Part shown: piece after piece, positions 1 through 59,086 of the stretch | How positions within the stretch are numbered: the stretch's first letter is position 1 | Layout of the letters: each line of letters begins with the position of its first letter | NCBI RefSeq assembly: GCF_040712315.1 | Contig: NC_134019.1 | Location: 36,547,873 to 36,611,872 of the forward strand | Source: Castanea sativa | Taxonomy: Eukaryota > Streptophyta > Magnoliopsida > Fagales > Fagaceae | Length of the DNA stretch: 64,000 bases | Reading direction: 5' to 3' | Made by a program: the position numbers and the translations under genes | The notes under the pieces: generated by a model | What the model was told of the DNA's origin: nothing | What the model saw: only the letters and a program-made list of their open reading frames with translations | Databases searched by the model: none

Positions 1-47
1 ATGGGAGTTAGATTAGTGCACAATAGTCTTTAGGGCAAGTGGGAGAT
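1..47 (+). mobile_element. 3' internal end and polypurine tract of a Ty1-copia element
   Basis: The bases just before the LTR contain GGGCAAGTGGGAGA, a purine-rich tract in the position and style of a copia polypurine tract, directly followed by the TG of the LTR. Gag-pol would lie left of the window, so the element itself cannot be assessed. Confidence 0.6.
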
Positions 48-1705
48 TGTTAGGATTAGTGCCCTTAAATCCTATTGTATGATGCTATGTATGATATTAT
101 GTATGACATGATGTATGACATGATGTATGACTTAATATTGTGATTGATAAAGTTATTTTATTATTATCTAAAATAATGGTAACATGAATATGGGACATTA
201 TCATATAGTCCATGAGATGCATTGTATGTGATTTATGTGAAAAGTCACAGAATATGTAAATCACAAGTTCTTTGTAAACTCAGAATTTATAGTTCGTAGT
301 CGGTGATGAAATTGGACATTTCATCTGCGAAGACTATAACGTGTCAACTAAGATAATTTGTCTTGATCATGGAAGTGGAGACTTCTAGTTGATATGTTGA
401 TATGTTTTAAGGGTTAAAACATATTGAACAGGACCGCTGTGAGATTTATTATTCTCCTAATGACTGTCAAATGAATAATAAATCTCACGACTTCTATTTG
501 CATGAACTCTTAATCATGAGAGAATAATGGACTTGATCATGAAGTGTAGGTTGCTTTGATATATCAGGAGTGAGATCTGAAGTAACGGTCAAAACCTCAG
601 TATGTTGGGCAGCCACATTTAGTGTTGATGGAACATATATTCTCAAGATGGAATTCATAGTCTCTTGATGGAGATATAAAATATTCTCTTGAGATAAGTT
701 TAATGGTTTCAGTTATTCAGAGAGTTAGGCCTAACCACTTTAGTAAAAAATTACTAAAGTATATATTTATGAAATTGGATTTCATAAATATATAATGAAT
801 AACTTTAAAGGATTAAATCGGGTACTCAAGGATAAGATGTAGTAATTTACAAAGTGGCAGTCTACATTTACGACTTTGTGTTACTACGAATATTTTATGA
901 AGGGGTTACGTGTATAATAAAGTCTTGGGATATAATTTATTAATAAGGCCTAGAGTGCAATTATATTTATATAGTGGTATTAAATATAATTAATGGTAAC
1001 TTTGGACTTGTCAAAAGTTGACGAAAAAGCCCAAGGCCCATTGGAGCTAGTGTCTTATTGGTCCCTTTTGGTCCCACTCCAAGCCACACACTAAAGCCCA
1101 ATTGGAAAGGCCCAATAGGCCAGCCCAATTAGATAATCAGTTAGTTATAAAGGGAGAAACATACAGTTTTTTTTTTAAAAAAAAAAAAGAGAGAAAAGAA
1201 AAATAAGAAACGGTGTGTGAAAGAGTGTGAGACACACTTTCATTCTCCCTTTGAAAACTGATTGAGAGACTACACATCTTGGGCGTAAAGTGGAATTGGA
1301 GTGAAGATTAAAAGTGTTCCCAAATGCTTCTAATCTTTGTTTTGAATTTCTCCACACCAAGGTACGCTATCTTGTTCTTAAATTCTGAAATTTACATAGT
1401 GCACGTTATCAATCATGAATGAAATAGATCCTAGTTCGTTGCTTCCGCTGTGTGTTTTGCATGAGATGCAAAACCAGAATTTTTCCTTCAGGTTTCCCCC
1501 CAGGTTTTTTACTGTGAAACTGGTTGGTTTCATTGGTTTTCTTGGGTCATCATATCTTGTCGTATTTATTTTTCCGCTGCATTTAGTTTTGACATGATAT
1601 TGATGTTTATTTGTTTTAATAAGTTTTATGCATGATAAATCTAATTAACAACTTGGGTTTTAAAAACTTGTTAATTCTATCAACCGGGGTCTAAATTTCC
1701 CAACA
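48..1705 (+). mobile_element. 3' LTR of a Ty1-copia retrotransposon
   Basis: This 1,658-bp block opens with TGTTAGGATTAGTGCCC after a polypurine tract and closes with AAATTTCCCAACA, giving the TG...CA ends of an LTR. A TATA-like motif (TTATAAAGGGAG) near 1145 and a following pyrimidine/purine-rich leader fit an LTR promoter. The 5' LTR and coding region are off the left edge, so LTR divergence and target-site duplication cannot be checked; the bases after the LTR are TGTAA. The short frames inside are not genes. Confidence 0.75.
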
Positions 1706-1963
1706 TGTAAGAACATGGAACAGAGTAGACCTGTTTCTTGATGCATAACCTTCAAGGAAGCAACCTACTACAACAATGATCATTGATGGTTAAGCTTGCT
1801 TCATTTGATAACTTTTGTTTGATCCCTGCTCACACATATATGAGTAACATTAATGTTACTCAAAGGTGAAAATCAAATAGAAGGAATATTAATGCATGTT
1901 TAGAGCAAGATTAAAGTGGGGTAGGGGGTGGAATTGATAATAGTTCAAGATTAAACTAATATC
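1706..1963. other. Unit A left edge, sharing a short repeat with the kelch intron
   Basis: No gene is seen. About 1830-1950 matches, in reverse complement, the kelch copy 1 intron at about 9186-9285 (shared pieces include GGTGGAATTGATAAT and GCAAGATTAAAG). The last eight bases, CTAATATC at 1956-1963, are half of a target-site duplication whose partner lies at 10540-10547. Confidence 0.55.
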
Positions 1964-3210
1964 CATAGTTTTAAAAACCGGACCGGACCGGCCGGTCCGA
2001 CCGGTTCAACCGGGAATCGGTCATCAATTCGGTCCGGTTATGTTATAAAACCGAAAATATACTAAAAACCGTTAAACAGTAAAAATCGGCCGGTTCAACC
2101 GAAAAACCGGAAACTAGCGCAGTCGAACCGGTTATGGCCGGTTGGGTTGAAAACTAAAAACTACACCGTTTTTTGACTTTTTCCCAGCCTAAAACTACTT
2201 TGTTTTGGAACATTCTGGTCAGTTTTGGGCGAAAAATGCTTTTTCGCACTGAGTGCTTCTGCAGTTCTGCCTTTTGCAAGATTTTTTTGACAAAAAAAGC
2301 AAAAGAAAGAAAGAAAGGAGCGACGAACGACGATCGCACAGTGACGATGTAATGCTCTTCAAGATTTTTTGACCCAAAAAAAAAACCTATGTCTGTTTCC
2401 GTCAGTGAGACTGAGAAGGAGGCGGAGAAGGAGTTTTGTGAGGAGATTTCAGATTTGTGAAGAAGAAATAGAGAAGGGGGAACACGTAAGGAAATGTGTA
2501 GGCTTGGAAAAGTGTAAAAAAAAACAGAAGGCATTGGGAAGGTATTTTTCTTTAAATGGGTGGATGACCTGAAGAGATGTGCAAGCAATAGGCACTAGGC
2601 TTTGCGAAAGTCAAAAAGAGGCCTTCGGATGGTAAAAAGTACAAATGGGTGGATGAGAAAAATTTATGATATTAATAAATAAATAAAATAGAAAGCAAGA
2701 GATAAAGATGTAGAATTAAAATTTTAAAACGGTGGAAGATTTATTCAAAAACAAAAAAGGTGGAAGAAATCACTCATCAAACGGTGGAGAAGAAGGGAAG
2801 AAAAAAAAAAAAAAAAAAGGAAAAAGCAAAAAAGGATTGGACATAGCTTAGGCAATGGGAAAAGTCCTTCTCACGTCACTTCATCTTCAATAGTTATCAA
2901 TTTGGACAGGAAACTAACAAGTAAAAACTAACCTACAAACATATAATATTTCAATTTATTATATTAAAGATGATTGTCTTGTAATTTTATTATGTTAAAT
3001 TTTTTAAAAAGATGTTATATATTGTATTTTTTTAATGAAATATATTTATCACCATTAGTTTGTTAGTTTTAGTATATTAAAATATTATTAATTATTTATA
3101 TAATTTAAATAAATAATAATTAAATTATTTATGACGTCACCGGTTCGACCAAAAAACCGGTATTTAGTTCTTTTTTCGGTTCTTTCACCGTACCGGTTTT
3201 TAAAACAATG
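1964..3210 (+). mobile_element. Non-autonomous hAT-like element, copy A
   Basis: The 1,247-bp element has terminal inverted repeats CATAGTTTTAAAAACCGG and, read inward from the right, CATTGTTTTAAAAACCGG, with many internal ACCGG motifs near the left end. Copy B at 10548-11813 is a near-identical inverted copy. No transposase is visible: the 67- and 144-codon frames recur in copy B as passengers of the repeat and look like nothing known. The 8-bp flanks are CTAATATC (left) and GGTAGAAC (right). They do not match each other, but each matches a flank of copy B, the mark of an inversion. The hAT assignment rests on 8-bp duplications and CA-starting ends, not on a protein. Confidence 0.8.
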
Positions 3211-3352
3211 GGTAGAACACAAGTAGTCCAAAAATGCAGTCAATATGCAAACGATTTTTGCATAACATGGGGAAGGGAGCAATGATTAAGCTTTCTTCCT
3301 TTGAGAGCCTTGACGTCTTGGTCTGGAATCACAGAATGAGAAAATTTTTGTT

Positions 3353-3387
<35 letters not shown>

Positions 3388-3429
3388 TTGGACTAGAAAG
3401 AGGACCAATAGAAACTGTCGTAATATTTA
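3211..3429. other. Segment shared with unit C, inverted here
   Basis: About 3216-3345 is the reverse complement of about 31460-31600 (for example AGAACACAAGTAGTCCAAAA and its complement near 31555-31575). It follows element A directly and is part of the inverted stretch. A T-run near 3356-3385 follows. There is no gene. Confidence 0.6.
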
Positions 3430-3823
3430 GTGTGTATTTGGATACCACTTATTTTACTGAAAATTAAAAATAATTAAAAAAAAAGATGCTACGTCTACAA
3501 TATATTTACAACATTTTCACAATAAACCATAGGTGGTTATTTGTTATTGGTTCAAATTTGAACTTAACATGAAGATTACTTTTTTGCCCCAACAATAACA
3601 ATTAGTAACAACCTGCCACTTAGGATTTGTTATAAAAATGTTGTGGACATATCATTTTTCGTAAAAAAATATATATTTCAGTTATTATTTATTAATGAAA
3701 CCACTGTTCTTATGCCTGTTTACACTGTTCATGTCCATGAACAATGCAAGTGGCGCTGCACTTAAAAAAATAATAAAAAAAAGCCAAAAATGTTGGACGT
3801 GGACGCGCAAAACAAACGAAACC
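3430..3823. mobile_element. Tourist-like MITE carrying a nested MITE
   Basis: The ends GTGTGTATTTGGATAC and, inverted at the right, GGTTTCGTTTGTTTT resemble the GGGTCTGTTTGGAT ends of the other Tourist copies in this window. TTA occurs on both sides (3427-3429 and 3824-3826), the usual PIF/Harbinger target. The middle is interrupted by another MITE (3485-3665). Confidence 0.6.
3485..3665. mobile_element. Palindromic MITE (ACAACATTTTCACAA family), copy 1
   Basis: The ends ATGCTACGTCTACAATAT and GTTGTGGACATATCAT are roughly inverted, with AACATTTTCACAA and TTATAAAAATGTT inside them. Related copies are at 5060-5205 and 23164-23357. It is non-coding and inserted in a Tourist-like MITE. Confidence 0.5.
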
Positions 3824-4048
3824 TTAGGGTCCAATTATCAAGTGTCTTTAAACTATTTGTTAATTTATAATTTTGGATATGAGAAAAACAAAAGTTTCTC
3901 ATAAATTTTTTTTAAAAAAATCTTTATTAAATTAATGTTTTTAGAGTATTTGTTAATTTTTCTGTGTCATTAATCTAACTTTGGAATGGGAAGAATCTTA
4001 CTTCTAGAATCTGAATTTTGTTCAGACAGATAGAGAGTGAAAGTGGTA

Positions 4049-4255
4049 TTACAATTACATTATTACAATCTTTTAAAAAAATCCTAGCTACTTCTAGAAT
4101 CTCAATTTTGCATCAAATCAAAGAAAAGGGGGCAATGCGCGGGTGCATGTTTAGAAATCACATTTGAGTCGAGTGTGGTTGAATGATTTGATGCAAAATT
4201 GAGATTCTAGAAGTAGCTAGGATTTTTCTAAAAGATTGTAATAATGCAATTGTAA
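4049..4255. repeat. Near-perfect 72-bp inverted repeat with 63-bp loop
   Basis: Arm 4049-4120 and arm 4184-4255 are reverse complements with two mismatches that I can count. A transcript would fold into a long hairpin. It may be a small foldback transposon or a young small-RNA precursor. No coding sequence is present. Confidence 0.8.
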
Positions 4256-4448
4256 AAACGTCTTTAAATGTGACCCGTATCTTTGAAAAATAATGCTTGA
4301 AAAGTGATTCACAAACATGCACGTGCGCATTGCCATCTTTTTTAAAGTTAGAACTTAGACCGACGACCCTTGTACCTTCTGATCCCACCGCAGTGTGAAA
4401 AGAGTTCCCTAATACAAAATTCCATTTTACACATGTCCAAACTGATGA

Positions 4449-4874
4449 GTCTTTTGACTGAATATTATAAAAAATAATTTTTTTTTTAAGGAAGTTTATT
4501 TATGATATGGATATTGTTTAAACTTATTTGAGAAAATGAGGAGAGAAGTAAATTTCGGCAATAGTATTGTCGAAATTTTGAAGAATAAAAAATATAAGAG
4601 AGGAGAGAGAAATGATGTGATGGGAGAGAAAAAAAATTGAATTTCGGTGATCACGTGTTCTATCACTGCAAGTTCATAATTAATATATATATGACAAAAC
4701 TTGGGTACAGTTCCTTAGCCCTTAGGTGTGTTCCTTAGATTTCTCTCTCAAGATTTAGCCACGTGACTACTTAATTAAAAAAATATACTTCCTTCTCATG
4801 AGAAAAAATCCATATAGCAGAATTTTAAAAGAGAAACCTAAGGAACAACACCTAAATACCTTACTTAAGTCTTG

Positions 4875-4908
<34 letters not shown>

Positions 4909-5522
4909 TAGGGAAATGATTAGGAGTATGGATTGGGGTGTATGTTTATTTTATACATATATTGTGATCTAGTTTATATGAATTGGGGTGCCATAATTCC
5001 TTTTTTTTTTTTTTCCTTTCCCCTACAATTTCAGCAACTTCATTGCCTTAGTTCTTTTTTGATTATTCACAATATTTTCACAACAAATCTTAAATAGCAG
5101 ATTATTACAGGTTGTTATTGGTAGGGTAAAAAAGTAATTTTAATGACAGTTTTAAATTATAACCAATAATAACTAACTATCTATGATTTGCTGTGAATGT
5201 AGCACCTTTTTTTTTTTTATCTCTCATCTCCCTTACAATTTCGACAACTCCATTGCTTTAATTCCTATTTTTCTCTTGGGCACTCCTCTATTTCAGGTAG
5301 CTTACATTTTAGGCAGGAATTTTAGTAACTACATCACCGAAATTCAATTTTCTCTCTCTCTCCCCCGTCACATAATTTCTCTCTCCTCTCTCATACTTTT
5401 TCTCAAAATTTTGGCAACGCCATTACCGAAATCTACTTCTCTTCTCATTTTCCCAAATAAGTTTAAACAATACCCATATCACAAATAAACTTCATTTTTT
5501 GCAATATTTAGTTAAAAGACTC
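4449..5522. mobile_element. Element with long (~200-bp) terminal inverted repeats
   Basis: About 4449-4665 and about 5332-5522 are diverged reverse complements. Landmarks are GAGTCTTTT with its complement AAAAGACTC, GTTTAAACTTATTTG with its complement, and AATTGAATTTCGGTGAT with its complement. Arms this long suggest a foldback or Mutator-like element without a gene. The interior holds an (AT)n tract near 4880-4905 and a second MITE. I could not fix the target-site duplication. Confidence 0.55.
5060..5205. mobile_element. Palindromic MITE, copy 2
   Basis: It begins near ATTCACAATATTTTCACAAC and ends near TTTGCTGTGAATGTAGCAC, with the internal GGTTGTTATTGGTAGGG shared with the copy at 23164-23357. 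It is non-coding. Confidence 0.5.
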
Positions 5523-6383
5523 CCAAACTCATTATCTAACTAGGGTTAATTACTTGATTGACCTTTGACACCATCGTTGGTAATTATCTTCTTCTCTCAA
5601 AAAAAATCATTGGTAATTAAATGATCCACATACAAATTAAAGGGGATAATCCATGCCCCAATTATATATATGAAATGGGTTCAAGTTATCCTCATATAAC
5701 TATACAAAAATTATACTTTTTCTAAGTCATAAATTTCCAAAACATCTAAGAGTAAAAAAGAAAGCATTATTACCTAATTAATAGCATCATTAAATACCTA
5801 CCTAATTAATAGCATCTTTTACCTCTTTCCTTATCAAATACTTTTTGCGTCACTTAAGTCTTTCACTATAATCTCTTTTTTATGCAATTCCTCGTATGTT
5901 TCTACTCTCTCCCACTTTCTAATTAAGCTTTCATTCAATAAGTTTTTTTTCCTTCCCCCTATGTAAAACCTGTATCACTTTCCTCATCCTATTTTAGAAG
6001 ATGTTCAAGTAAAAATATTCATAGTAGAGGAGTTGCAAATAGCATCACACAACTACAACAAGACCACAAATTTGTTGGGAAGGGAGCCTATGACCTACTT
6101 CGGGAAAATTTAAAGGACGCTCTGAGGACATTGGTTTGGAAAATATTCATAGAAATTTTTCATAGAAAAAGAAAAGTAATTTATTTTTTTATGGCTTTTT
6201 ATATTCCCCATAATAGTGGTATCAAAATTTTTCTAAAATGATTTACTAACAATTGTTTTAAGGGCATCCGTTATTCCGTTGACATGGCCAACGATTACAC
6301 AATACTTAGACTAGAGAAACAAATTCTTCTTCAAAGAATGTAATTTTTAAATTTAGGAGTGGGGTAATAAGTAAAATACTTTA
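5523..6383. other. Unit A intergenic DNA colinear (inverted) with unit B
   Basis: About 5525-5670 is the reverse complement of about 25622-25720. Shared words include TAATTACCAA, GATGGTGTCAAAG, TAATTAACCCTA, AATGAGTTTGG and CATGGAT. This is intergenic DNA of the duplicated unit, reversed in unit A. The rest is AT-rich with no gene that I can support. Confidence 0.55.
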
Positions 6384-6758
6384 GGGCAAATTACAACTTA
6401 CCCACATGTGGTTTAGTTGAAATTTAAGTTTCCTACTTGTGGTTTAAAATTTCACACTTTACCCACATGAGGTTTGACTGAAATTTAAATTGCACACTTG
6501 TTGTTTAAATCTCATGATGCAAGTGTTCTACTGGATTCTTTTTTATCTTATTTGATCTTGTATTTTTATGTTTTTTTTGTGTTTTTGGATGAGAAAGACA
6601 TAAAAGTGGAGAAAATTTATATATTTAGCCATGTTTTTAACAAAGGTAAGTTAATGAAATCTAATTGAGCTAATCTCAAGTAGGTAAAATGTCAAATTTT
6701 AAACCACAAGTAGGCAAAATTTCGGTCAAACTACAGGTGGGTAAGTTGTAATTTGCCC
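6384..6758. mobile_element. Mutator-type MITE with perfect 9-bp target duplication
   Basis: The ends GGGCAAATTACAACTTACCC and, inverted, GGGCAAATTACAACTTACCC are the same. Further inside, copies of CAAGTAGG and CCACATG(A/T)GGTTT recur in both orientations. AATACTTTA lies on both sides (6375-6383 and 6759-6767), the 9-bp length expected for Mutator-like transposition. No transposase is encoded. Confidence 0.85.
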
Positions 6759-7365
6759 AATACTTTAATTACTCTTTTTTTTAAAGAAGAAAAGTTATAC
6801 TAAGAGTAACTTGGATCCAATCGACAGAGATATATATCTATATTCCAACCCACACACACACACACACACATATATATAGTCCAAATTTGGTGGTGTAACA
6901 CATTTTACACCATTCAATAAGAGATTACTACATCAGTTTTTTACTTATAACTCAATACATCATCTTATCCAAAAAAAAAAAAACTCAATACATCCTATCA
7001 CACATAATAGCATCTCAATGTATTTTAAATTGAGTTGAACTTTTAGATGGGTATTAGAATCAATTGGATGTGGTTGTGCCTATTATTTAATATGCGATAT
7101 GATGATGTGACATATTAGAATTAGATGGTATAAATCTTGGATTTTACACCACATCCTTATAGATTTTTTTTTTTTTTTTTGAAAAGAACATTCTTATAAA
7201 ATTTAATTTCATATAATATAGATGAGAATTTTAAGCATAGACCAATTAACATAAAATGTGCATTTAGCTGTTATAGTCTATGCTTGAATAAATACTCTAC
7301 TCTATCCATTTTGCAATAATTGGAAAATATCTTAATAACGAATAACAAGCATTCTGAGGGCAGTA
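6759..7365. other. AT-rich intergenic DNA with (CA)n and a possible MITE
   Basis: A (CA)n(TA)n tract lies at about 6848-6877. GGTGGTGTAA near 6891 and TTACACCACAT near 7144 are inverted and may be the ends of a roughly 260-bp MITE. A T-run is at 7167-7180. There is no gene. Confidence 0.4.
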
Positions 7366-7500
7366 GGTTCTAGTTAGTTCAATTGGTAAAGTCTTTGATG
7401 GTTGAATAAGAAATTTGAGATTCAATCTCTGCCTACGCCAAAAACCGATTGGTTTCTTGATCTTTTGATAAATAACTATCATCATGAGCGGATTGGTTTC
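7366..7500 (+). mobile_element. tRNA-derived SINE, copy 1
   Basis: TAGTTCAATTGGTAAAG near 7375 looks like a polymerase III A box and GAGATTCAATCTC near 7418 like a degraded B box, spaced as in a tRNA. The body AACCGATTGGTTTCTTGATC followed by TGATAAATA is shared with the copies near 25290-25470 and, inverted, 34326-34432. It does not fold as a functional tRNA. Confidence 0.6.
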
Positions 7501-7639
7501 ACTTCTGCTCTTGCCTCAAATATTTATAATTTTATAAGCATAGGTTGCATTATTCACTTCTTCCCTTTCCTCAAATATTTATAATTTTATAGACATGATT
7601 GTTACGATTTATAATCTTTGCGTTGGTGATCCCAAAAAA

Positions 7640-7840
7640 AGAAACATAGGGCCAATTCATGGCAGCACGTAGGGCCTTGGTATGTGCATTTTTATTATAT
7701 TTTTGGGTTGATAAAGAGCCCATTATGTTAGGGCCCAAACTGGACTTACCAATACGTGTATATATATATATATATTCAAACGGAACCCTAACCTAAATCA
7801 CCAAATCCCAACCCTAAAACCGTGACCCTTAGCCCAAGCA
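7640..7840 (+). promoter_or_regulatory. Promoter and 5' leader of kelch copy 1
   Basis: The stretch ends at the ATG of kelch copy 1. It contains GGGTTGATAAAGAGCCCATT, GGGCCCAAAC and a (TA)n run that can serve as TATA box. The same sequence recurs upstream of kelch copy 2 (about 22640-22770) and kelch copy 3 (about 50780-50915), so it belongs to the duplicated gene and is not random intergenic DNA. Confidence 0.55.
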
Positions 7841-9016
7841 ATGGAGGAGATATGGAAGCATGAATATGTGATCAGTTTTTGTGGGCATCGGTGGGTACCG
7901 TATGAACTGGAAGAGTCAAATACTACTCATCAACTAGAAGAGTTGTATGCCTGTAAGATTCCATACTCAGACGACGACTCACCTTCTTGTTCAATCAAGG
8001 TATATCCTTTTTCGCCCATTCCGTTTTCGTCAGTGAAGTTGTTTGGGGTTCGCAACACTCATGCGTATGGAGGGTCCCGTCTGTACACTATAGGCGGCAT
8101 AGATCCCACCTCCGATTCCAAAATAGTCGATCCCTTAGATTACAATATTTATAAACTCTGGACCCTAAAGCTTGATAGCGATAGCGATGGTGGTTGGAAG
8201 CCTCTTCCTCCCATGAATTTTCCTGGTAGACGCTCCTCTTGCTCCATCGTCCTCGACGCTAAGTTATATGTGTTTGATGGCTTCTCTTCTGAGTTTTCTG
8301 AAAATTGTGGCTGGATGGAGGTTTATGACCCCATCTCAGGTACATGGGAGTCCTTGCCCAGTCCTCATCTTCCTGTTCCTCCTTGTTCTGTTCGCATGTA
8401 TGCAGCTCTTGAATCTTAGCAACAGATTGTTGTAGCTTTACTTTGTGATCCCAAATTGAACAACTTTTCTACGTTATTTACTTACAACATCAGCAATCGA
8501 TGTTGGACAAAACTTGTGCATCACTTCGAAGTACAACCTGGGTATCCTCTCTCATTTTATAGAAGTCCTGTAGCTGTTGGTAATACTCTCTATTGGGGTT
8601 CTGTTCACTTTGATAGAGGCTATGATGATATCCGTATACATGCACATGCTTACGATTTAGATAGGGATAAGTGGCTCGTCGACTCTTTGAACGTTTTTCG
8701 CCGTGGCGTCAATAGCCCAATTCTTCTGGAGGATGAACTTCTGGTAGATACAGGCCATACACCACCTTTGCTCCATTTAGCTGATCAGAAATTCTGCATT
8801 TTCCTCCACTCTACCAACCGCAAACACACTTTCCACCACAATAAGGAAGGCAATAAGCACGATTATATCAATTGTCTCATACTTGAAATTTCTCCACCAA
8901 TATTCGATCGTGACAAGGACAAGGACAATAGTACGGACTTGTGTATTTCCATTGTGTCCATCCATAAGTTTCCCTTCGATGGCGAACTAATCTTCCACGA
9001 TAGCTTGTTGCTGTAA
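7841..9016 (+). pseudogene. Kelch-repeat (galactose-oxidase-like) protein, copy 1, one premature stop
   Basis: One frame runs 392 codons from ATG to the TAA at 9014-9016, broken only by TAG at 8417-8419 (codon 193). Kelch copy 2 has AAG there (ESKQQ), so the stop is a derived change. Visible kelch features are SRLYTIGGID near residue 80 and LYVFDGFSSEF followed by GWMEVYDPISGTWESLPSP near residues 145-178. The second half has TLFTYNISNRCW, GNTLYWGS and AYDLDRDKW. I see no F-box at the N terminus. GTAAGT overlaps the final codons and could be a 5' splice site. A protein ending at codon 192 would lack half the propeller. The exact family and function are unknown to me. Confidence 0.8.
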
Positions 9017-10547
9017 GTTTTCTACTTTCTCTCTCTCTATTTCGCTTTCCTTTTCCATGCTTGCATAAATTTATCTGCTGTCTAGGCTAGCATTAACAAC
9101 AAAACACCTGGTATTTATTTTGATGTCTTCACTAACAATCGATCTTACAAAGCCTATATTTCATGTGCCACCTCTAATCGGACCCATTATCAATTCCACC
9201 CCCCAACCCTCTTTAATCTTGCCCTAAACACACTATCTGATTTTTGGATTTTTAATAACATTACTGTTACTCATTTATGCGAGATTAGTTTAGCAAAGTA
9301 GTCACAGAGGATTCTGCCATAAATACAGACCATTGTATTATTTCACTCAAGCTTAATGGAATCAGTTACAGCTTTTCCCTGATATTTTCTCTCTTTCTGT
9401 GAATCACTTTTGTTATGCTCATTTTGAAGCTTCTGCTTTTGAGTTTGGGGTGGTTTAGCATCTAGACGTGCATGTGTGTATAATAATATGAATATATGTG
9501 ATGTATGCCTATCATACATTTAAACTCTTAGTATGCGTGCAGTAGCATTTCAAAAGGCCCTTTAACCTTTTCTTTATAAGATATATCTCTATGTTTGATT
9601 TTAATAGTATATCATTCCTGTAATCCTTTCTCCGTTTAGGTCCCTAATATAATTCTTTATCTTTTGCCTTCAATTTCGAAGCTGCTTTTGTCTATTTACC
9701 ATTTGATGCTGTATGTTGCTCTAGGCTTGTAAGTTGAAATTAGTAGGGGATCCGAAAGGAGCATTGCTAGTCACAGAATTTGCAATGCGTGATGGAGATG
9801 AACTTGTGAACAGTTTGGACTTTGGAGATGTATTTTCTCCAAAATTAAATAGTTGTGAGATTATGCGTGCACATTTTTATTAGTTTTTTACTTCACTTTC
9901 ACCCAAGATATTAGTTTACTATTGCTTACAAGTTTTTTTTAAGGGGTTATACACTATAACATGGTAGACACTATAACATGCTATATACACAATCATAGAC
10001 ACAACATAACGTAGACTAAAACGTCTAGTCTTGAGCAAATTGATGCTTCCAATAATAAAAGGTGATCATAGCAAAAGGATGATAATAAGATTGAAATTGA
10101 AAAGGATAGAAGATCAGTTAATTTTCAGGCTCAAGCTACCTACAATGACCCTATAAGCCTAACCCTTCATCTTCCATATAACAATTGAATATTGACCTTC
10201 AATAGTCTGAACAAAATGGGCGATGGACTAATAGGCATTCTCTGCTCTAGTTTTGACATTTCATGCACCGACATCTTTTCTGTGTTTAATGTGGTTATTT
10301 ACTTGATAAAATAAATTGTTTGATGTTGTTTTCTTGTTTGAAATTTTAAATTCAATTTCCATGTTTCTGGTGCAAATTGCGGTTAATCCATTATATTTTT
10401 TTTTTTCATATTAAAATTAATCTTTTTTCATCTTGTTTTTTGCCCCTAAACCATGCAAAACGTTCCACTTCACGTCAATGTCTTAAAATCAAGACTTCAC
10501 TATACTCTGAGCTAATGAAATATAAATAAGATAACATGAGATATTAG
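9017..10547 (+). other. 3' part of the duplicated kelch locus with a candidate second exon
   Basis: This stretch is the inverted counterpart of 18665-20160 in unit B. After a TCTAG acceptor, 9725-9883 is open for 52 codons (ACKLKLVGDPKGALLV...RAHFY, then TAG). The unit B copy begins AFKLKLGDLKGALLV and then breaks. Joining the GTAAGT donor at 9013 to this acceptor gives the wrong phase and a stop after a few codons, so the splice is unresolved. The segment ends with GATATTAG, the flank of element B. Confidence 0.5.
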
Positions 10548-11813
10548 CATTGTTTTAAAAACCGGTACGGTGAAAGAACCGAAAAAAGAACTAAATACCG
10601 ATTTTTTGGTCGAACCTCAATGATCGAACCGGTGACGTCATAAATAATTTAATTATTATTTATTTAAATTATATAAATAATTAATAATATTTTAATATAC
10701 TAAAACTAACAAACTAATGGTGATAAATATATTTCATTAAAAAAATACAATATATAACATCTTTTTAAAAAATTTAACATAATAAAATTACAAGACAATC
10801 ATCTTTAATATAATAAATTGAAATATTATATGTTTGTAGGTTAGTTTTTACTTGTTAGTTTCCTGTCCAAATTGATAACTATTGAAGATGAAGTGACGTG
10901 AGAAGGACCTTTCCCATTGCCTAAGCTATGTCCAATCCTTTTTTGCTTTTTCCTTTTTTTTTTTTTTTCTTCCCTTCTTCTCCACCGTTTGATGAGTGAT
11001 TTCTTCCACCTTTTTTGTTTTTGAATAAATCTTCCACCGTTTTTAAATTTTAATTCTACATCTTTATCTCTTGCTTTCTATTTTATTTATTTATTAATAT
11101 CATAAAATTTTCTCATCCACCCATTTGTACTTTTTACCATCCGAAGGCCTCTTTTTGACTTTCCCAAAGCCTAGTGCCTATTGCTTGCACATCTCTTCAG
11201 GTCATCCACCCATTTAAAGAAAAATACCTTCCCAATGCCTTCTGTTTTTTTTTACACTTTTCCAAGCCTACACATTTCCTTACGTGTTCCCCCTTCTCTA
11301 TTTCTTCTTCACAAATCTGAAATCTCCTCACAAAACTCCTTCTCCGCCTCCTTCTCAGTCTCACTGACGGAAACAGACATAGGTTTTTTTTTTGGGTCAA
11401 AAAATCTTGAAGAGCATTACATCGTCACTGTGCAGTCGCTGGCTCGCTGCTCCTTTCTTTCTTTCTTTTGCTTTTTTTGTCAAAAAAATCTTGCAAAAGC
11501 GAGCTAACAGAACTGCAGAAGCACTCAGTGCGAAAAAGCATTTTTCGCCCAAAACTGACCAGAATGTTCCAAAACAAAGTAGTTTTAGGCTGGGAAAAAG
11601 TCAAAAAACGGTGTAGTTTTTAGTTTTCAACCCAACCAGCCATAACCGGTTCGACTGCGCTGGTTTTCGGTTTTTCGGTTGAACCGGCCGATTTCTACTG
11701 TTTAACGGTTTTTAGTATATTTTCGATTTTATAACATAACCGGACCGAATTGATGACCGATTCCCGGTTGAACTGGTCGGACCGGCCGGTCCGGTCCGGT
11801 TTTTAAAACTATG
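10548..11813 (-). mobile_element. Non-autonomous hAT-like element, copy B (inverted relative to A)
   Basis: The 1,266-bp element is the reverse complement of copy A with only scattered differences, including the same ends (CATTGTTTTAAAAACCGG at the left, CATAGTTTTAAAAACCGG read inward from the right). Its 8-bp flanks are GATATTAG (10540-10547) and GTTCTACC (11814-11821). These are exact reverse complements of copy A's left and right flanks. That pattern is expected if recombination between A and B inverted the DNA between them. The open frames inside mirror those of copy A and are not genes. Confidence 0.8.
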
Positions 11814-11821
11814 GTTCTACC

Positions 11822-12338
11822 ACAAGACACAGAACTACCCTTCACTGCTATTCACAGAAGAAGTGTCATAATTATGCTCCAAAAGAATAAAAATTTGTTT
11901 TTGAATTAAATGTCCGTTTTAGATTATTTTTGTTACTATATCCCTCAAAAATAATTTATTTCCACTCCAATTTAGAATTTAAACCAAAGTTTTACTCAAA
12001 AAAAAAAATTAAACCAAAGAGTCTAAATAAGTCATTGAGTCTAAAAGACTCTTTGGTTTTTACACCAAATAATTCATTTTTCACAAAAATTAATAAATTA
12101 GATGAACACGATGCATAAAATTAGACTCCAATTTAGAATTTATTTAAATTTAAACTCTTCGGTTTTACACTCAACTAGTGTGTAACTCCATGCATATGTA
12201 TGGGTACAATTAAAAACAATCACAATTATATAGTTGAAATTATACATTTTTTTTAGAAGATATTCAAATTATACATGGTATTAGGTTACACTTTTTTTAA
12301 ACCATATATTTCTAAAACATGTAATTGTTTTTCATTGA

Positions 12339-12380
<42 letters not shown>

Positions 12381-12654
12381 GATTTAGAATTTAATTGGAT
12401 TTAGGCTCTTTAGTTTTTGCACCGAATAATTTACCTGCCACAAAAATTAGAAACTTAGATGGACACACGACGCAAAATTAGACTCCAATTGAAATCTAAT
12501 TGGATTTGGTCCCTTCAATTTTTACACTCAATAATTTACTTGGTAAAAAAAAATTTAAAATTAAATGGAACATGGGGCACAAAATTGAGAATTCAATTGA
12601 AATCTAATTGGATTTTCTCAAGTTTTGCTTTAAATATATATATATATAGTCAAT
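11822..12654. repeat. AT-rich DNA with diverged ~115-bp tandem repeats
   Basis: From about 11930 to 12625, four or five degenerate units recur, each with words such as GACTCCAATT, TCTAATTGGATT, TTTTACACTCAATAATT and CACAAAATTAGA. A (GT)n(AT)n microsatellite at about 12340-12380 splits the array. No gene is visible. Confidence 0.5.
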
Positions 12655-13060
12655 TTTAAGCTAATTAACAGATTAATCCCAATTGTTAATGTAATTATAG
12701 AAACATTTTTAAGGTTCAAATGTACTCCAATAGTGATAACCCAAGAATCATTTAAGGAAACATTTTTAAGACTTTCTTGTAATATGTAAATTTTGGATAA
12801 TTGTTGAGTACTCCCGAAGTACCATAAATGTGTACTCCCTCATCTCACATAACTGTGGGTCTCACTAATTAAATTAATGGTGGGACTCACAATTCATGTA
12901 AGGGGAGGAGTACACATTTATAATACTCCGGAAGTATTCAATAATTTTCCGTAAATTTTAACCTAATTAACCAATTAAGCCCAATTGTTATATAATAATA
13001 AGAATCATTTAAGGAAATTTTTTTCAAGACTTTCTTGTATTTTGCTTTTTTTGAGATAGT
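12655..13060. repeat. Two-copy direct repeat of the duplicated unit
   Basis: AAGCCCAATTGTTA, AAGAATCATTTAAGGAAA and AAGACTTTCTTGTA occur twice here (about 12655-12785 and 12951-13040). They also occur twice in unit C (about 32100-32220 and 32410-32545). The tandem repeat is thus older than the split of units B and C. Confidence 0.65.
12795..12950. mobile_element. Mutator-type MITE, 156 bp, perfect 9-bp target duplication
   Basis: The ends GGATAATTGTTGAGTACTCC and, inverted at the right, GGAAAATTATTGAATACTTCC extend into arms of about 45 bp (CATAAATGTGTACTCC). GTAAATTTT flanks both sides (12786-12794, 12951-12959). The homologous place in unit C near 32410 reads ATGTCAATTTTAAGC without the element, a natural empty site. 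Confidence 0.9.
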
Positions 13061-14519
13061 TACAACATGTTGCTAAAACCATAACTCGAACTATTTTTCT
13101 TTAGAACCCCAAACAATTTGTGCATTAGGAGATGCCAATTAAGTTACAATGCTATTACTAGACTTTCTTGTAACTAGGTTTGCAATGTATGTCAAAGTTC
13201 ATTTTTTAAACTAATATATAATTCACATAATTTAGAGAAACAAAGTGTTTCTTCATGATATAAATTCATATTCCTCAGACCTTTTCTTGAGGCAGAGGAA
13301 ACTTCTTCACCAAAAGAAATATTGCAAGGCCTCTCTGAAATTTACAGTGTCCGGGTAGAAGTGATTCGATTTTTTTTTTTTTTTTTTGGTTTGATAATTT
13401 ACACATGAAAGGGACATTATAATTATCATGGTAATAAGTAAAAACCTTTAGAGCAAAACTGCACCTTCGTAATAGTTACATTAATTTATCTATTACTATC
13501 TTCTAAAAAAAAAAAAAATCTATTACTAATTTTCAACCGCATAGGAACCCAGCAAGAATAAAAGAAGAATTCCTTCTATAAATATCCAAAAAGTTCTTCA
13601 TGAATAGATTCTCATAAAAAAAAAAAAAAAAAAGTTTTCATGAATATGGATCTATCTAAAACCAACAATTAATTCATAAAGGTTTTCTAATAAGCAGAAC
13701 ATTTGGACCAAACATCCTAGGACCCATCTAGTTTTTCAAAATGAACTTGGCATATCAACATGGTTTTCTTTCTTATCAAAAAATAAAATAAAATAAAAAA
13801 ATAATACAAAGTTTTCTTAAAAAAAAAAAATCCCAAATGCATTATACTTCGAAGTTCACATTCTATTATATATCCATTACATTTACATCAAGCCAACAAA
13901 ATAGAAATTACAAGCTAAACAAATCTAAAATTCAACAGGATAAGACCATCACAGCTACAATTCTCCATTGCCACTTCTATTTCTGCTCCTCAAGAACCTT
14001 CTACTCAGCAAAAATTTGTCTTGGCATCTGAAAAAATAAAAAGACATGAACTCCTCAAATCCTCGTTCACTCAAAACACACTAAGGCCCAACCGCCCAAG
14101 AAAAGGGTACTGAAAGAAAGACAAAGTAAACAAGTAGGTGAGAGAGAAAGTTACAGTACTTACGAAGAATATATAAGCTCACTTTCATTTGATTTAGAAT
14201 ACGTATAAAGTAACAGATCATGAACCATGCTCAGCATCAATCATAATAACATAATACAAAATTAGAAACCAAGTGAATATACCGGACAACCAAATAGAGT
14301 TATCGTTAAAACTATGAAACAATTTGGTTCAGTTGGAGAGAATCAGAGTAGGAGTACGAGCAAACTCATAGAGATGAGAGGGGGGATTAGTGAGAGCTTG
14401 ATTTGTGTTGAATGGCTCAAATCACCGTTCCAAAAAGGTCTTCACAAATATGCACATAACCTTTTGTCTAAAACCTTCATTAGAACAATGATTTTTTAAC
14501 ATGAAATTGAAATAGCATC
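13061..14519. other. Non-coding DNA of unit B shared with unit C
   Basis: Pieces match unit C at about 32560-32680, 33455-33560, 34500-34740, 35350-35640 and 38040-38220 in the same order and orientation. Examples are GCATTATACTT, TTACATCAAG, CAAAATAGAAATTA and GATTTAGAATACGTATAA. Unit C is interrupted by insertions that unit B lacks. There is no gene apart from the decayed downstream end of the membrane-protein copy. Confidence 0.6.
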
Positions 14520-15185
14520 GCGGAGTTCGTACCATTGATATATTGGTAGAAGAGATAGGCAACAAGGTCGAACGATCTTGGTGCTGAAGGCGATAATACC
14601 TAACCAAGATGGGCATCATGAGTCCATATAGCCATTCTAGTGCGAATTGCACCGCTTTACTCATTTTCTCATAAAACCATCTTCTTAACCAATCAAGTAA
14701 AATGAGAAAAGCACACATTAGTACGAACATGAAAGCAATATAATCGAACCATGTAAGTGGAGCTGAAAAAATCTATAGATGCTATCAACATCACTGCAAG
14801 TATGGCTGCGAATTTGCTGATGTGACCGCGCGCAAACAAGACCATATATGTTATCAGCTGCGAGGTTGAACTTGGCTTCAGCTATGGGAGACACAAAGAA
14901 AACAATCGAGATGTAAATGAAAGCCTCTATGGTAATTGGGTGAGTAGCATGAGGATTAAAATCCGTGTTAAGATACTTCAATGGAATAAATGAGACAAAT
15001 AAAGGGATCACAAATGCAAAGATTTTAAGTCGTGTGTCATGGGGGAGTGGAGAAGGCAATGAGCTTCTCAGCTGTTGTGATGGTAGAGATGATATGAACC
15101 CATGCGCTGAGAGAGAGAGAAACCAGAACCTGCTCCCTCGAATCAAATTTCTATCCGAAAAGAAAACTGGGTCCTTACTTGTCAT
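14520..15185 (-). pseudogene. Broken copy of the multi-pass membrane protein at 38494-39102
   Basis: Reading leftward, the first part matches the intact unit C gene closely (GFISSLPSQQLRSSLPSPLP, IFAFVIPLFVSFIPLKYLNT). An extra base near 14833 (TTGCGCGCGGTCACATC where the intact gene has TTTTTGGTCACATC) throws the frame. A second length change near 14773 restores it, and the end resumes as FVLMCAFLILLDWLRRW and LLPISSTNISMVRTP. The ancestral stop TGA has become CGA, so the frame runs on. Two frameshifts plus a lost stop make this a pseudogene. The N terminus before GFISSLPSQQ also differs from the unit C copy. Function of the family is unknown. Confidence 0.85.
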
Positions 15186-15485
15186 GAAATGGACTGAAAA
15201 GAAAGATAATTGGAGTTACTGATGAAATGGATTGCATGGGATCATTTTACTTGTCATGAAATTATTCCCTCCATTTTAGAGGTATGTATATTTCCTTTTT
15301 TTTTGTGATTGGTAAAACTTGTGAGATTGGGCTTTGAAGCTGGGTTGTATTCTTTGGAGTCCTGGCTGCCAAACTAAGTAGAATTGCTCTTTTGGTTATA
15401 CATGCTTTTGCATTTAATTGATCTCTTACTCCAACTGAAGTGTAAGCGTTTCTTAAAGAAACTCTGTGATGTATGTAAATTTCAG

Positions 15486-16657: not shown

Positions 16658-18664
16658 AGGGAGCTGCATAGTAATGGCATCTGCAATCAATTTATATATA
16701 GCCCTCACAACAGAAAAACTTTTAGTTCTTCAATCAAGTCTTATTGGATGTTAGTTTTGCCTTCCTAAAAGCTCTGTGTATACATTACAATTCATAATTA
16801 AATATTTATATTCGTCAATAACCTTGTAATTTAGTGGCATAACTTGATTTTCATTATAAGGAGAACCAAATTTTGAATCTCCCTTTATGCACTTGTTGGA
16901 ACAACTGAATGATCAAAATAAACAAAATTTGCTAAATTCTGTGACTTGTTTCATTACAACATTCGTTAACAATATACTATTAAGCTTCATCCTTTTGCTT
17001 ACTATCTTCCCCAACTTCTAGGCCTTCAGTGCATCATATTAATTTAGCCAACAAGAGACAATTGAATCATCCAACCCCACAAACCAACCTAAAAATCTAA
17101 CGCAATTGACATGTCCTGTTTCAAATTGGGAATTTAGCATTTATAAGTTTGAGCAGAAGACCATAGATTTGGTGGGAAGAATGAGAGAAGCAACAGAAGA
17201 AAAAACCCATTAATGGTTAAAACAGGAGGGAGGAACCAAAGGTTCAAAACCAAAGAAAAGTTCAAGAGGTAAACAGAACCACCTATAAAAGCATTCTCAA
17301 GTCAAGCCCTGTAAACTTTGGACTATGGCTACACTACTTACAAGAAAAATCTATGAATTGGTTCTATCCTCAATTTTGTACAGTTGTATTGTTGTGAGGG
17401 GTCTGGTTACTTAATTTCATTGGCTCCCTGGAAGAACCTGAAAAGTAAAAGGATTAAGTTCATTTGAAGGGAGGGCCAGCTCAAAGTAAAAAGGATGAAT
17501 AACATTAAAAATTAAGCATTTATCCATTCAATTGCAGGCAACCTATGTCACAAAAAATCCTGGTTGCCAGTCATAATATCAAACAATAAAAGAATGGTTC
17601 TAGGATACCAATTGAATGCCAATCCGCTAATGGAACATCTAGTTGTATGCCTCCCTTTCCTAATCACGTCTATCAGTAACTGTAACAGTAATTAACATTC
17701 AGAATTCCATCCCACCTATTCAGCCAAAAAAGTCCCACTACACCTAAAAAATTTATTCCCAGTCCATACATATAGCTTGCATTAATGTACCAACTTTCTT
17801 CTTAGCAGCAGCAAACTCTTTCTTTATTCTAGCTGAAATAAAGAATAATTACAAATAGGCTTTCAGAAGAAAAAATGTGTAATTTGACTATATATTTATC
17901 TTAAATATTGAACAATTAGTAAATGTTCATAAATTCAAAACATAATATCCTTCACAAATCACAACCATCTTATGTTTGAGACTACTTGGATCTGATGCAC
18001 ATAGATATTAAATGTGGAATCCAGAATGTTCGAACCAAAAACTGAATAAATTTTCTTTTTCTTTTTTTTTTTTAAAAAGTCATATAAAGAACTTAACTAA
18101 ACATCTGTAGTAAAACTTCAAAAATAAGTGATGAAATCCGGAATTGTCACTAACCATCATTTGGCTCCAGATCTTGGTGATCACATCATTAATATTGGAT
18201 CCTATCTCATCGAACATGCTAGGTAAATATTTGATGGGGGAATAAACTGATAAAACCCCCTAGCGGAGGGAAAGGCAGGAGAGTAAATAAACCTTTTAAG
18301 AAACTTTTTAAGCAAAAGTAAACAAATATGGGTGAAAGTGGAGTAAAAATACTAATAAAACTGTGCATGCATATAATAACCATGCTAGAGATTGCTACCG
18401 TTGCCATAAAAAAGAACTCTAGACTCATACTTGTTGATGAAAAAACATCATTAACAAAAGTACCACAAAATCAACTGCAAGAAAAATCAGTAAAAATGAA
18501 TATTTAAACATATCATATCATGATAACTAATTCAATCAAAATAGTGTTCTAGTTAATTCAATGTGTAAAAAAAAATTAGTTCGTAATTACAATAAGGATC
18601 TCAAAACTAAGATCACTAAAAGGTGTCAATAGCAAATTGTGTGAATACTACTGCATAAATAATT
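16658..18664 (-). pseudogene. Eroded multi-exon gene of the duplicated unit (unit B copy)
   Basis: On the minus strand, exon-sized pieces with AG/GT borders are visible. 18218-18155 reads MFDEIGSNINDVITKIWSQ followed by MM and a GTTAGT donor. About 17832-17770 reads RIKKEFAAAKKKVGTLMQ after TTTCAG. 17437-17417 reads VLPGSQ then TGA after TTTTCAG. The last two recur in unit C near 46730-46680 and 45750-45725 with few changes. I do not recognise the protein, and order and phase are uncertain, so this is an exon-like remnant and not a gene model. Confidence 0.45.
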
Positions 18665-19934
18665 TTAATCTAACAAAAAATAGATATAATGGATTAACCA
18701 CAGTTTGCACCGGAAACATGTAAACTGAATTTAACTTCTCAAACAAGAGAGCTACATCAAACAATTTATTATATCAAATATGCAACCACATTAAACATGG
18801 AGCAAAAATGATGTAGGTGCATCAAAGCTAGAGCAGAAAATGCCAAAGTCCATTTTGTTCAGCCTATTAGCTATTATAAGACTCGTCTTTTGTTTGTCTA
18901 AGTTATGTTTTGTTTATTGTTGTACTCAACATTCTATTGTCATGGGACTTTGAATGAAATTGGAAGGTTAGGATTCAAAGATGAAGGCTATGATTTTAGG
19001 GTCATTGTAGGTAGCTTGAGCTAGAAAGTGATCTTCTATCCTTTTCAACTTAAATCTTATTGTCTTCCTTTCACTATGATCTCCTTTTATTGTTGGAATT
19101 TCTTCTTAGACCCTTTGCAAGCTTCAATCTGCTTAGACTAGTCAATTTTTTTAGTCTATTTTATGTTTTGTCTACTATTGTGTATTTAGCATGTTACAAT
19201 GTCTACTATGTTAAGCGTTCGAACTATGATTGGTCGATGAGGAATAAACTGATTAAACCCCTTCAAAAAACTTGTAAGCAATAGTAAACCAATATCTTGG
19301 GCGCAAGTGAAGTAAAAACTAATAAAAATGTACATTCATAATCTCACAACTATTAATTTTAGTGAAAATACATATCAAAACTATTCACAAGTTCAACTCT
19401 GTCACGCATTGCAAATTCTGTGACTAGCAATGCTCCTTTCAGATCCCCTAATTTCAACTTAAAAGCCTAGAGCAACATACAGCATCAAATGGTAAATAGA
19501 CAAAAGCAGCTTTGAAATTGAAGGCAAAGATAAAGAATTATATAAAGGACTTAAACGGAGAAAGGATTACAGGAATGATATACTATATAAATCAAACATA
19601 GAGATATATCTTCTAAAGAATAAGTTAAAGGGCCTCTAGAAATTTTACTGCATGCATACTAAGCGTTTAAATGTATGATATCACATATATTCATATTATT
19701 ATACACACACATGCACGTCTAGATGCTAACCCAGCTAAAATCATTAATGAACAGAAACTTCAAAATGAGCATAACAAAAGTGGTTCACAGAAAGAGAGAA
19801 AATATCTGGGAAAAATTGTACTAAAAACCAAACTATGGACAAGTTCAAACACTTGCCACCAATCTTCAAATAAATAAAATAATGCTAAATAGCGAGAGAA
19901 GTAAATTACAGCAACACGCTATCGAAGAAACTTA
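18665..19934 (-). other. 3' part of the kelch copy 2 locus
   Basis: This is the inverted match of 9340-10410. It includes the candidate second exon (about 19390-19475 on the minus strand), where GALLVTEFAMRD is preserved but the frame then breaks. Shared words include GGGTCATTGTAGGTAGCTTG and CTAGAGCAACATACAGCATC. Pieces also recur in unit C near 47100-47170 and 48170-48230, showing that a third kelch locus existed there. Confidence 0.6.
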
Positions 19935-20152
19935 GAGTCCGTTTGGATAGAACTTATTGCTGAAAACTGAAAACTGAAAACACTGTACAAAAATAATTTT
20001 TTAATGTGTAAAAATTACTGTTCATCTCAAAAAGTACTGTTCATTGGCCTAAAATCACTGTTCATGGCCAATGAACAGTAACACATGCGCGTGGAAAAAA
20101 AAAAAAAAAAAACGGCCAAACGTGGACGCAACTGTGCTATCCAAACGCCCTC
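19935..20152. mobile_element. Tourist-like MITE, TTA target duplication
   Basis: The ends GAGTCCGTTTGGATAG and, inverted, GAGGGCGTTTGGATAG are flanked by TTA on both sides (19932-19934, 20153-20155). The interior has inverted ACTGTTCAT motifs and an A-run. It cut away the 3' end of kelch copy 2, whose homology to copy 1 stops here. Confidence 0.85.
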
Positions 20153-20160
20153 TTAGTTGG

Positions 20161-21291
20161 TCATTGATGGGGATACTTATGGATGGACACAATGGAAATA
20201 CTCAATATCGAGGAACGGTTGAGGGAATTAAGCTTGTGATCATCGTCACTGTCGGCCTCACTACTATCGTCCTTGTCCTTGTCATTGTCATAGTCATTGT
20301 CACGATCTAATATCGGTAGAGAAATGTCAAGTATGAGACAATTGACATAGTCCTGCATAATGCCTTTCTTCTTATTATGCGTGAATGAGTGGAGGAAAAG
20401 ACAGAATTTCTGATCAACTAAATCAAGCAAAGGGATGTACGGGGTTCATCTGCCAAAGTTCATGCTCCAGAAGAATTGGGCTGTTGCCGCGAATAATGTT
20501 GAAAGAGCCGTGGAGCCACTTATCCCTATCTAAATAGTAAGCTTGTATATGGATATCATGGCTTCTATCGTAGTCAACACTAAGAGCCCCAGGTTGTATG
20601 TCGAAGTGATGCACAAGTTGATGTTGTAAGTAAATAATATATAAAAGTTCATCAATTTGGGATCACAAAGTAAAGCTACAACAACCTGTTGTTTAGATTC
20701 AAGAGCGGCATACATGCGAACCGAAAAAGGAGGAACAGGAAGAGGAGAACTGAGCAAGGACTCCCATGTATTTGAGATGGGGTCATAAGCCTCCATCCAG
20801 CCACAATTTTCAGAAAACTCATAGGAGAAACCACCAAACACATACAACTTACCGTCAAGGACGATGGCGTAAGGGGAGCGTCTATCAGGAAAAACTCATA
20901 GGAGGAAGACGCTTCCAACCATCACTAAGGTGTTTAAGGTTTAGGGTCCATAGGATCCAGAGTTTTCTTGAGTCATCTGTATTGGAATCGAATGGTTCTA
21001 TGCCGCCTATAGAATACAGACGTGACCCCCTGCATGCATGAATGTAGCGATTTCCCAACAACTTCACTGACGAAAACGGAGTGGGCAAAGAAGGAGATAC
21101 GGTGATTGCAACCTTTTCCTTTGTCGGAGAAGAAGAAGAAGGGTGGCACAGTGAATCTGAGTCTCAGTCCGGGTGTGGAATCTTAAAGGCATACCACTCT
21201 TCTAGTTGATGATGATCTGACGGGTGCCACCGATGGCCACAAAACCGATCACAAATTCATCAACAACATCTGGCTTCCATATCTCCTCCAT
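20161..21291 (-). pseudogene. Kelch-repeat protein, copy 2, frameshifted
   Basis: It starts at ATG 21291 (MEEIWKPD...), then breaks early: the shared text (GFCGHRW, HHQLEEWYAFKIP) lies in another frame. Later pieces are SRLYSIGGIEPF, LYVFGGFSYEFSENCGWMEA, YDPISNTWESL, ALESKQQVVVALLCDPK, LVHHFDIQPG and YYLDRDKWLHGSF in alternating frames. An acidic D/N/K-rich tail precedes SIVSIHKYPHQ. It supplies the AAG codon where copy 1 has TAG. Several frameshifts and small deletions make it non-functional. The 3' end is replaced by a Tourist MITE. Confidence 0.85.
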
Positions 21292-21399
21292 TGCTTGCTT
21301 TGAATCAGAAAATAACACGAGAAGAAGATATAATAAGGGCTAAGGGTCACGGTTTTAGGATTGGGATTTGGTTATTTAGGGTTCTGTTTGAATATATAT

Positions 21400-22500
21400 C
21401 TATACTAATATTTAAGGGGCTTCTCTTATTTAGAATCTTCATTATTTTTTTTTTTAAAAAATACCCCTACATCCGCTTTAAAAAAAAAAATGCCCCCACA
21501 TCCCTATATTTCAGTAGAGACAAAACCAAATGACAATCTGGTAAAAATACAACTCTAACTCCACTTAAACATTGCTTTATCCACTTATAAATTAGATTCT
21601 CAAAATAAAAATTATGTTAAAATGGAAAACTGACCCTCTAACTTTTTTCAAATTTCATTTCAATTATTTAACTTTGTTTTTGTTCATTTCAGTCCTCTAA
21701 GATTTATTCAATCAATGCCTTTTTGTTAACTTTTGTTAAAAATTTCGAAAACAAAAATTTGGAAAATATTTCAATCATTAATTGAATTTTTTTAATTTAA
21801 ATTTTTTGAAAAAAAAATTATAAAATTGAAAAATTAACCACAACATATAACAAAAGTTGATAGAAAAGTCTTAATTGAATAAACTTGAAAGTTAAAGGAC
21901 TGAAATAAATAAAAACAAAGTTAGAGGACTGAAATGAAATTTGAAGAAATTTAGAAAGTCAATTTTGCATTTTGCCCTAAAAATTATATATATAAAATAA
22001 AAACACAATTTTTTTTTTTTGCTACAAAATAGGACCACTAAAATAAAAAAAATCATTATCACACGCCCTTGTTTGGGATCCTCATTTTTTGTTCAAAAAT
22101 GCCCTTACATCCTTATATATAAGTAGATACAAAACTAAAGGACAATTCGGTAAAATTACAACTTTAATTCCCACTAAAATATTGCTTTATCCACTTATAA
22201 ATTAGATTTTCAAAATAAAAATTATATATATAAAATAAAAAAACATTTTTTTTTTGCTACAAAATAGGAACACTAAAATAAAATAAAATAAAAAGCATCA
22301 TCACACACGCAATAAGGCTCTTCTTTGTAGGTATTTTTTTTATAGGAACTTGGGGTAGTTTTTTTTTTTTTTTTTAGAACATGGGGTAGTGGGAAGTTTT
22401 ATGGAACATGGGGTAGTTTTATAAACATGGTAGGTTTTTTTTTTCAATTTTATCAATTTACGATTTTAACCTCATTTTTATGTTTTAAGAATAAGGATAA
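21400..22500. mobile_element. AT-rich insertion with internal repeats in the kelch copy 2 promoter; Helitron-like start
   Basis: The kelch leader is interrupted here and resumes near 22640. The insertion begins TCTATACTAATATTTAAGG, similar to plant Helitron 5' ends. It contains two related blocks (about 21440-21630 and 22075-22330) sharing TGCTTTATCCACTTATAAAT and CTACAAAATAGGA. Between them, 21610-21960 has inverted words (GTCCTCTAAG..., GAGGACTGAAATGAAATTTG). No helicase is encoded and I cannot fix the 3' end. Confidence 0.35.
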
Positions 22501-25621: not shown

Positions 25622-25625
<4 letters not shown>

Positions 25626-59068: not shown

Positions 59069-59086
59069 GCCCCCTTGTCTATAGGT

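Follow-up and report, generated by a model that had tools for sequence, protein, structure and literature searches.

Evidence for a 7.3-kb inversion between sister hAT-like elements in a kelch tandem array of Castanea sativa

Introduction

Small inversions leave few traces. The stretch of DNA analysed in this study (the window; 64,000 nucleotides of Castanea sativa, contig C7 positions 36547873-36611872 in a genome of 716 Mb and 13 contigs) holds two inverted copies of one hAT-like element about 7.3 kb apart, and the short duplications flanking them are exchanged between the copies. A sequence-only reading of this locus had proposed that the two copies recombined with each other and thereby flipped the DNA between them, including a gene. 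Was the intervening segment really inverted and, if so, by which route? Positions are given in window numbering (C7 position = 36547872 + window position), and negative values lie upstream of the window.

Two inverted elements and their target duplications

Element A (1964-3210, plus strand) is bounded by imperfect terminal repeats, CATAGTTTTAAAAACCGG and CATTGTTTTAAAAACCGG, and element B (10548-11813, minus strand) is its inverted sister; no coding capacity was recognised in either. On its left, A adjoins the outer copy of a target duplication, x (CTAATATC, 1956-1963), whose reverse complement, the inner inverted copy GATATTAG, adjoins B at 10540-10547. The second target duplication, y, has its inner inverted copy (GGTAGAAC, 3211-3218) at the right end of A and its outer copy (GTTCTACC, 11814-11821) beyond B. 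The elements, their ends and all four 8-bp flanks had been described correctly to the base, the flanks of B being reverse complements of those of A. When the two flanks of each element are compared directly, they match at only 3 of 8 positions, and two exact 8-mer matches of the exchanged kind would arise at the local base composition with a chance of about 1.2e-9.

A and the reverse complement of B share 1225 identical positions and differ by 19 substitutions and 4 indel events, which gives 98.5 percent identity at compared positions over inverted repeats of 1.25 kb. It could be argued that both elements really carry direct duplications and that the assembler flipped the unit between them, since misrouting through an inverted repeat of 1.25 kb would produce identical swapped tags. 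However, the 123 kb around the locus are free of Ns, the assembly of 716 Mb in 13 contigs suggests long reads, A and B differ at 23 places, and the interval between them is shorter than 10 kb and so spannable by long reads. Misassembly is thus unlikely.

The hAT superfamily is characterised by 8-bp target duplications, short terminal inverted repeats and a hAT transposase. The terminal inverted repeats of A match at 17 of 18 bp, and the seven other full-length copies listed from the genome all carry direct target duplications, identical at 8/8 positions in six and at 7/8 in one. Neither the longest frame of A (146 aa) nor that of B (110 aa) has a Pfam match. Including A and B, the genome contains at least nine full-length copies of the family; these come from the 40 of 764 candidates that were scored, copy counts being lower bounds. 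Short forms of about 540-570 bp, in which both end regions are kept and the middle is gone, were also seen (C7:10497943-10498496, C9:44661487-44662055 and C1:34023809-34024346). In a downstream unit, at 28549-30815, three open pieces retain parts of a hAT transposase (Pfam DUF4371 and Dimer_Tnp_hAT). Exact pattern scans of viral and bacterial collections gave no match. An 8-bp near-duplication inside A and B had been considered as their private footprint, a reading that first rested on seven distant translated relatives; it is ruled out, since other genomic copies have the near-duplication too, altered in one of them (L006).

Inversion of the intervening segment

Reversal of 3211-10547 (about 7.3 kb) turns CTAATATC and GTTCTACC into two direct duplications, as the sequence-only reading had claimed. 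It also restores colinearity with the rest of the tandem array, of which this locus is a part and which extends upstream of the window: between 1-15200 and 15201-50000, the score of the best chain rises from 2206 to 4198 bits. On a 200-bp grid of 2850 trial inversions, the best chain is shared by 187, all of which start at 0-3200 and end at 10600-12600. At a finer scale, the colinearity expected near 25622-25720 is seen between about 25.62-25.72 kb and the two pieces 5523-5587 and 5606-5657, and that expected near 31460-31600 between 31358-31574 and 3213-3433. All these colinear pieces belong to one paralogous block, so that what had been counted as three independent signs are two, the duplications and the block.

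The flipped segment does include a gene, kelch copy 1 (7841-9016, plus strand), which is damaged in this assembly by an in-frame TAG at 8417-8419; Pfam Kelch_1 and Kelch_2 score above cut-off before the stop. Given this stop, nothing points to a functional effect of the flip. The second paralogous unit (18660-21404; kelch copy 2, coding on the minus strand, with the kelch 3' flank) is oriented as unit 1 would be once restored. A tblastn search with oak-type kelch proteins found one further kelch-coding copy in the window, at 20308-21291 on the minus strand, and beyond these two copies only short scraps; at the DNA level, kelch copy 1 likewise has a single other match within 123 kb, at 20284-21297. 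The claim that reversal aligns copy 1 with copies 2 and 3 is therefore borne out for copy 2, whereas no third copy was found in the window. Eleven relatives of the kelch protein were found at 58 percent identity or more, and every one of the five whose source is named comes from an oak (Quercus rubra, twice, Q. robur, Q. lobata and Q. suber; 81-83 percent). Segments of the kelch flank form a tandem array with unequal losses from -30855 to 47172, in which flank pieces recur several times.

An empty target site in an upstream paralog

One unit of this array, about 29 kb before the window, carries the y site unflipped and element-free: the reverse complement of 3211-3791 is joined there to 11814-12206 via a single GTTCCACC. 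The stretch from -29586 to -29012 matches the reverse complement of 3211-3791 at 89.7 percent (alignment length 594), that from -29019 to -28614 matches 11814-12206 at 94.8 percent (alignment length 406), and what the two matches have in common is the 8-mer alone (GTTCCACC, compared with GTTCTACC). In 300-bp comparisons, with unpaired ends included in the gap positions, the inner side shows 276 identities, 11 mismatches and 37 gap positions, and the outer side 294 identities, 6 mismatches and 12 gap positions. Thus, the left end of the interior and the right exterior flank adjoin in this paralog in the unflipped order. The junction at y is contiguous there, with a single target copy and with DNA neither lost nor gained.

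The tags, the colinearity and the upstream paralog together support an inversion of 3211-10547 at the element ends, as far as can be judged from comparisons within one genome. A coincidence or a rearrangement of another type, such as breaks rejoined by end joining next to unrelated insertions, might be considered in a tandem array that is heavily rearranged and whose units keep different segments. However, inverted copies of one element sit exactly at both breakpoints, the swapped 8-mers have a chance of about 1e-9, and the y junction is contiguous in the paralog; we regard such an origin as highly improbable.

At x (the left junction), no bridging paralog was found in 123 kb, and of the four other places in the genome that match 10300-10547 none extends beyond 10421. 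The flank outside B (11822-15109) has direct-orientation matches in the upstream and downstream tandem units, the downstream match beginning near 12644. The paralog of the reverse complement of 3213-3433 in the downstream unit (31358-31574) ends in the y site; similarity just past it is weak and resumes at the paralog of about 12644. This 31.6-kb unit had also been considered as a bridge of the y junction, but it bridges weakly and was replaced by the upstream paralog, its bridge score being reached by 8/300 shuffles over 40 bp, 7/300 over 60 bp, 195/300 over 100 bp and 172/300 over 200 bp. Because the duplicated blocks beside y are only 89.7 to 94.8 percent identical and A and B 98.5 percent, the insertion of the element and the flip are likely to be younger than the tandem duplication beside y.

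A and B as sister copies

To place A and B within their family, the nine listed full-length genomic copies were aligned and trees were built from partitions of the alignment. The closest relative of A is B and vice versa, with 19 substitutions between them against at least 27 to any of the seven other listed copies. Seven substitutions and a 9-bp gap, spread over 2116-3152, are common to A and B and occur in none of the seven others; in A this gap sits within a longer one. Each of the six overlapping partitions places A and B as sisters; the ultrafast bootstrap values are 100 (whole element), 93 (first half), 100 (second half), 99 (middle), 94 (right) and 64 (left, 1964-2310). Among nine copies, 8.6e-4 pairs as close as A and B would be expected by chance. 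Given this figure and the sister relation, the second copy is most likely a local derivative of the first. A start from two independent, unrelated insertions is rejected, A and B being mutually closest among the nine listed copies and also linked.

Several unlinked pairs have as many substitutions as A and B or fewer (L003-L004, 19; L003-L005, 17; L005-L006, 16; L004-L005, 11), and therefore the split between A and B may predate the flip. Nine changes can be assigned to B and five to A; the remaining five, all in one cluster, cannot be assigned to either copy. This cluster comprises 7 of the 19 substitutions within 14 bp (2322-2335), a density reached by none of 20000 random placements. It adjoins a stretch predicted to fold into a DNA hairpin (z -2.77, a fold matched by 1 of 200 shuffles), and in the predicted hairpin region of the element (2250-2345) clustered complex changes occur at the shoulders in A, B and L006, the last being altered at the cluster site and at a second site across the hairpin. 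We infer that the cluster reflects one local event, a template-switch mutation, with no bearing on the inversion; the region 2250-2345 is possibly a local mutation hot spot.

The uneven divergence between A and B had also been considered as a gene-conversion tract. The excess of substitutions in 1964-2335 (14 vs 5, p 9e-5) falls to p 0.027 if the cluster is taken as a single change, and further removal of methylation-type transitions leaves p 0.43; this candidate was abandoned. Against the seven other genomic copies, no chimerism of A or B was seen, although chimerism between copies that were already sisters would be invisible.

One transposition or two steps

Exchanged duplications alone do not prove recombination. 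While the inversion stands, recombination between A and B as its mechanism is not established by the tags, because transposition of a hybrid element also predicts them. According to Delprat and colleagues, exchanged duplications agree with ectopic recombination but leave hybrid-element insertion possible, the discrimination lying in chimeric vs identical copies; hybrid-element insertion is described there as leaving two identical copies, with an outcome strikingly like that of ectopic recombination (PMC2775673).

Here, a single transposition is slightly preferred over a local hop followed by recombination. It would have started from one element at site x, inside its own duplication CTAATATC. 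After replication, transposase would have paired the left end on one sister chromatid with the right end on the other, and the paired hybrid ends would have inserted 7.3 kb away at y (GTTCTACC), a site presumably free of any earlier insertion in this lineage. Joining in the inverting direction would give x-E-y' ... x'-E'-y with the amount of DNA unchanged, which matches the order seen. One event of this kind would account for the copy number, the proximity, the inverted orientation and the swapped tags. We put the probability that 3211-10547 was flipped between the sister hAT-like copies by one hybrid-element transposition, which also made the second copy, at about 0.47. The fuller version, that one non-autonomous hAT-like element, in one transposition of hybrid ends between sister chromatids, copied itself and flipped the kelch segment of the tandem array, the pre-insertion target being still visible about 29 kb upstream of the window, is held tentatively, at a little short of even odds.

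On the other hand, A and B are no longer identical (19 substitutions and 4 indel events), and a local hop with later ectopic recombination would lead to an identical arrangement. In addition, PMC8225341 counts against the single transposition: sister-chromatid transposition of maize Ac/Ds is described there as giving inverted duplications and composite insertions, with simple inversions unnamed in the passages concerned, and non-identical tags are taken as a mark of recombination. In the two-step course, which combines the recombination of the sequence-only reading with a local origin of the second copy, the element would have hopped locally from x to y (or from y to x) in inverted orientation, both sister insertions having direct duplications, and ectopic homologous recombination would later have flipped the 7.3 kb. 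Exchanged duplications are its classic signature in the relevant passages of PMC2775673 and PMC8225341, inverted repeats of 1.25 kb at 98.5 percent identity are a plausible substrate, recurrence is reported in 11 of 16 human inversions between inverted repeats (PMC3961182), and the divergence between A and B resembles that between unlinked copies. However, two events are required, and neither chimerism nor a conversion tract could be demonstrated when A and B were compared along their length, as had been suggested for locating a conversion or crossover point. We consider the two-step course a serious possibility, somewhat less than an even one.

Comparison with known systems

Close to the present case is the Galileo inversion 2z3 of Drosophila buzzatii, whose breakpoints likewise carry a DNA transposon in two inverted copies with exchanged target duplications (PMC2775673). 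There, single target copies are described in the uninverted DNA, here one was found for y only; the Galileo copies are chimeric, whereas the sister relation of A and B holds along their length; and uninverted chromosomes were sequenced, whereas here a paralog stands in for them. Galileo belongs to the P superfamily and its inversion is cytologically visible, in contrast to the 7.3 kb between hAT-like elements in this study. P-element hybrid insertion resembles the present case in its two inverted copies, described there as identical, and in an outcome like that of recombination (PMC2775673), and maize Ac makes 8-bp duplications as here (PMC8225341, PMC4270019). The P-element and Ac/Ds cases were induced or arose in the laboratory, and their transposase is known (PMC2775673, PMC8225341, PMC4270019), whereas the present event is deduced from one assembly; the sister-chromatid products described for Ac/Ds are duplications and composite insertions and not, as here, a simple inversion (PMC8225341). 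Recurrent human inversions likewise involve a segment between near-identical inverted repeats, but in those polymorphism and recurrence were typed, whereas here one assembly was read (PMC3961182).

Among titles and opening lines of abstracts in the mechanism literature, a scope with few subscription journals and hence a weak negative, we found no naturally occurring inversion in a plant whose hAT duplications are exchanged, and the parts of PMC2686159 consulted contain nothing on the subject. The relative importance of inversion mechanisms in plants has been said to remain to be explored (review, PMC7093584). The present locus preserves both insertion scars, one empty target copy and the sister elements, so that haplotypes of related trees could tell one-step transposition from recombination.

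Other repeats in and near the segment

Within the inverted segment, a foldback insertion (4447-5522), which we take to be MULE-like, has inverted arms of about 200 bp (78 percent) and near-duplicate flanks, CCAAACTGAT (4437-4446) and CCAAACTCAT (5523-5532). It is absent at the paralogous sites about 25715 and about -46600, the second being judged by eye. An Rfam scan of the window gave no match.

Repeat DNA at 1-1706 parts the left flank of A from the remainder of the upstream unit. Its part 47-1539 is paired with -6747 to -5267 at 98.4 percent, an arrangement like that of an LTR retrotransposon, and at least 39 other places match 1545-1706. The left flank of A itself (1835-1941) resembles the reverse complement of 9186-9279 in the inverted segment (74 percent) and is perhaps the tail of an upstream copy of the kelch 3' flank, cut by the repeat DNA. 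Farther downstream, reverse transcriptase domains (RVT_1 and zf-RVT) lie at 58996-60879 and a zf-RVT fragment at 48481-49323, both presumably LINE-like.
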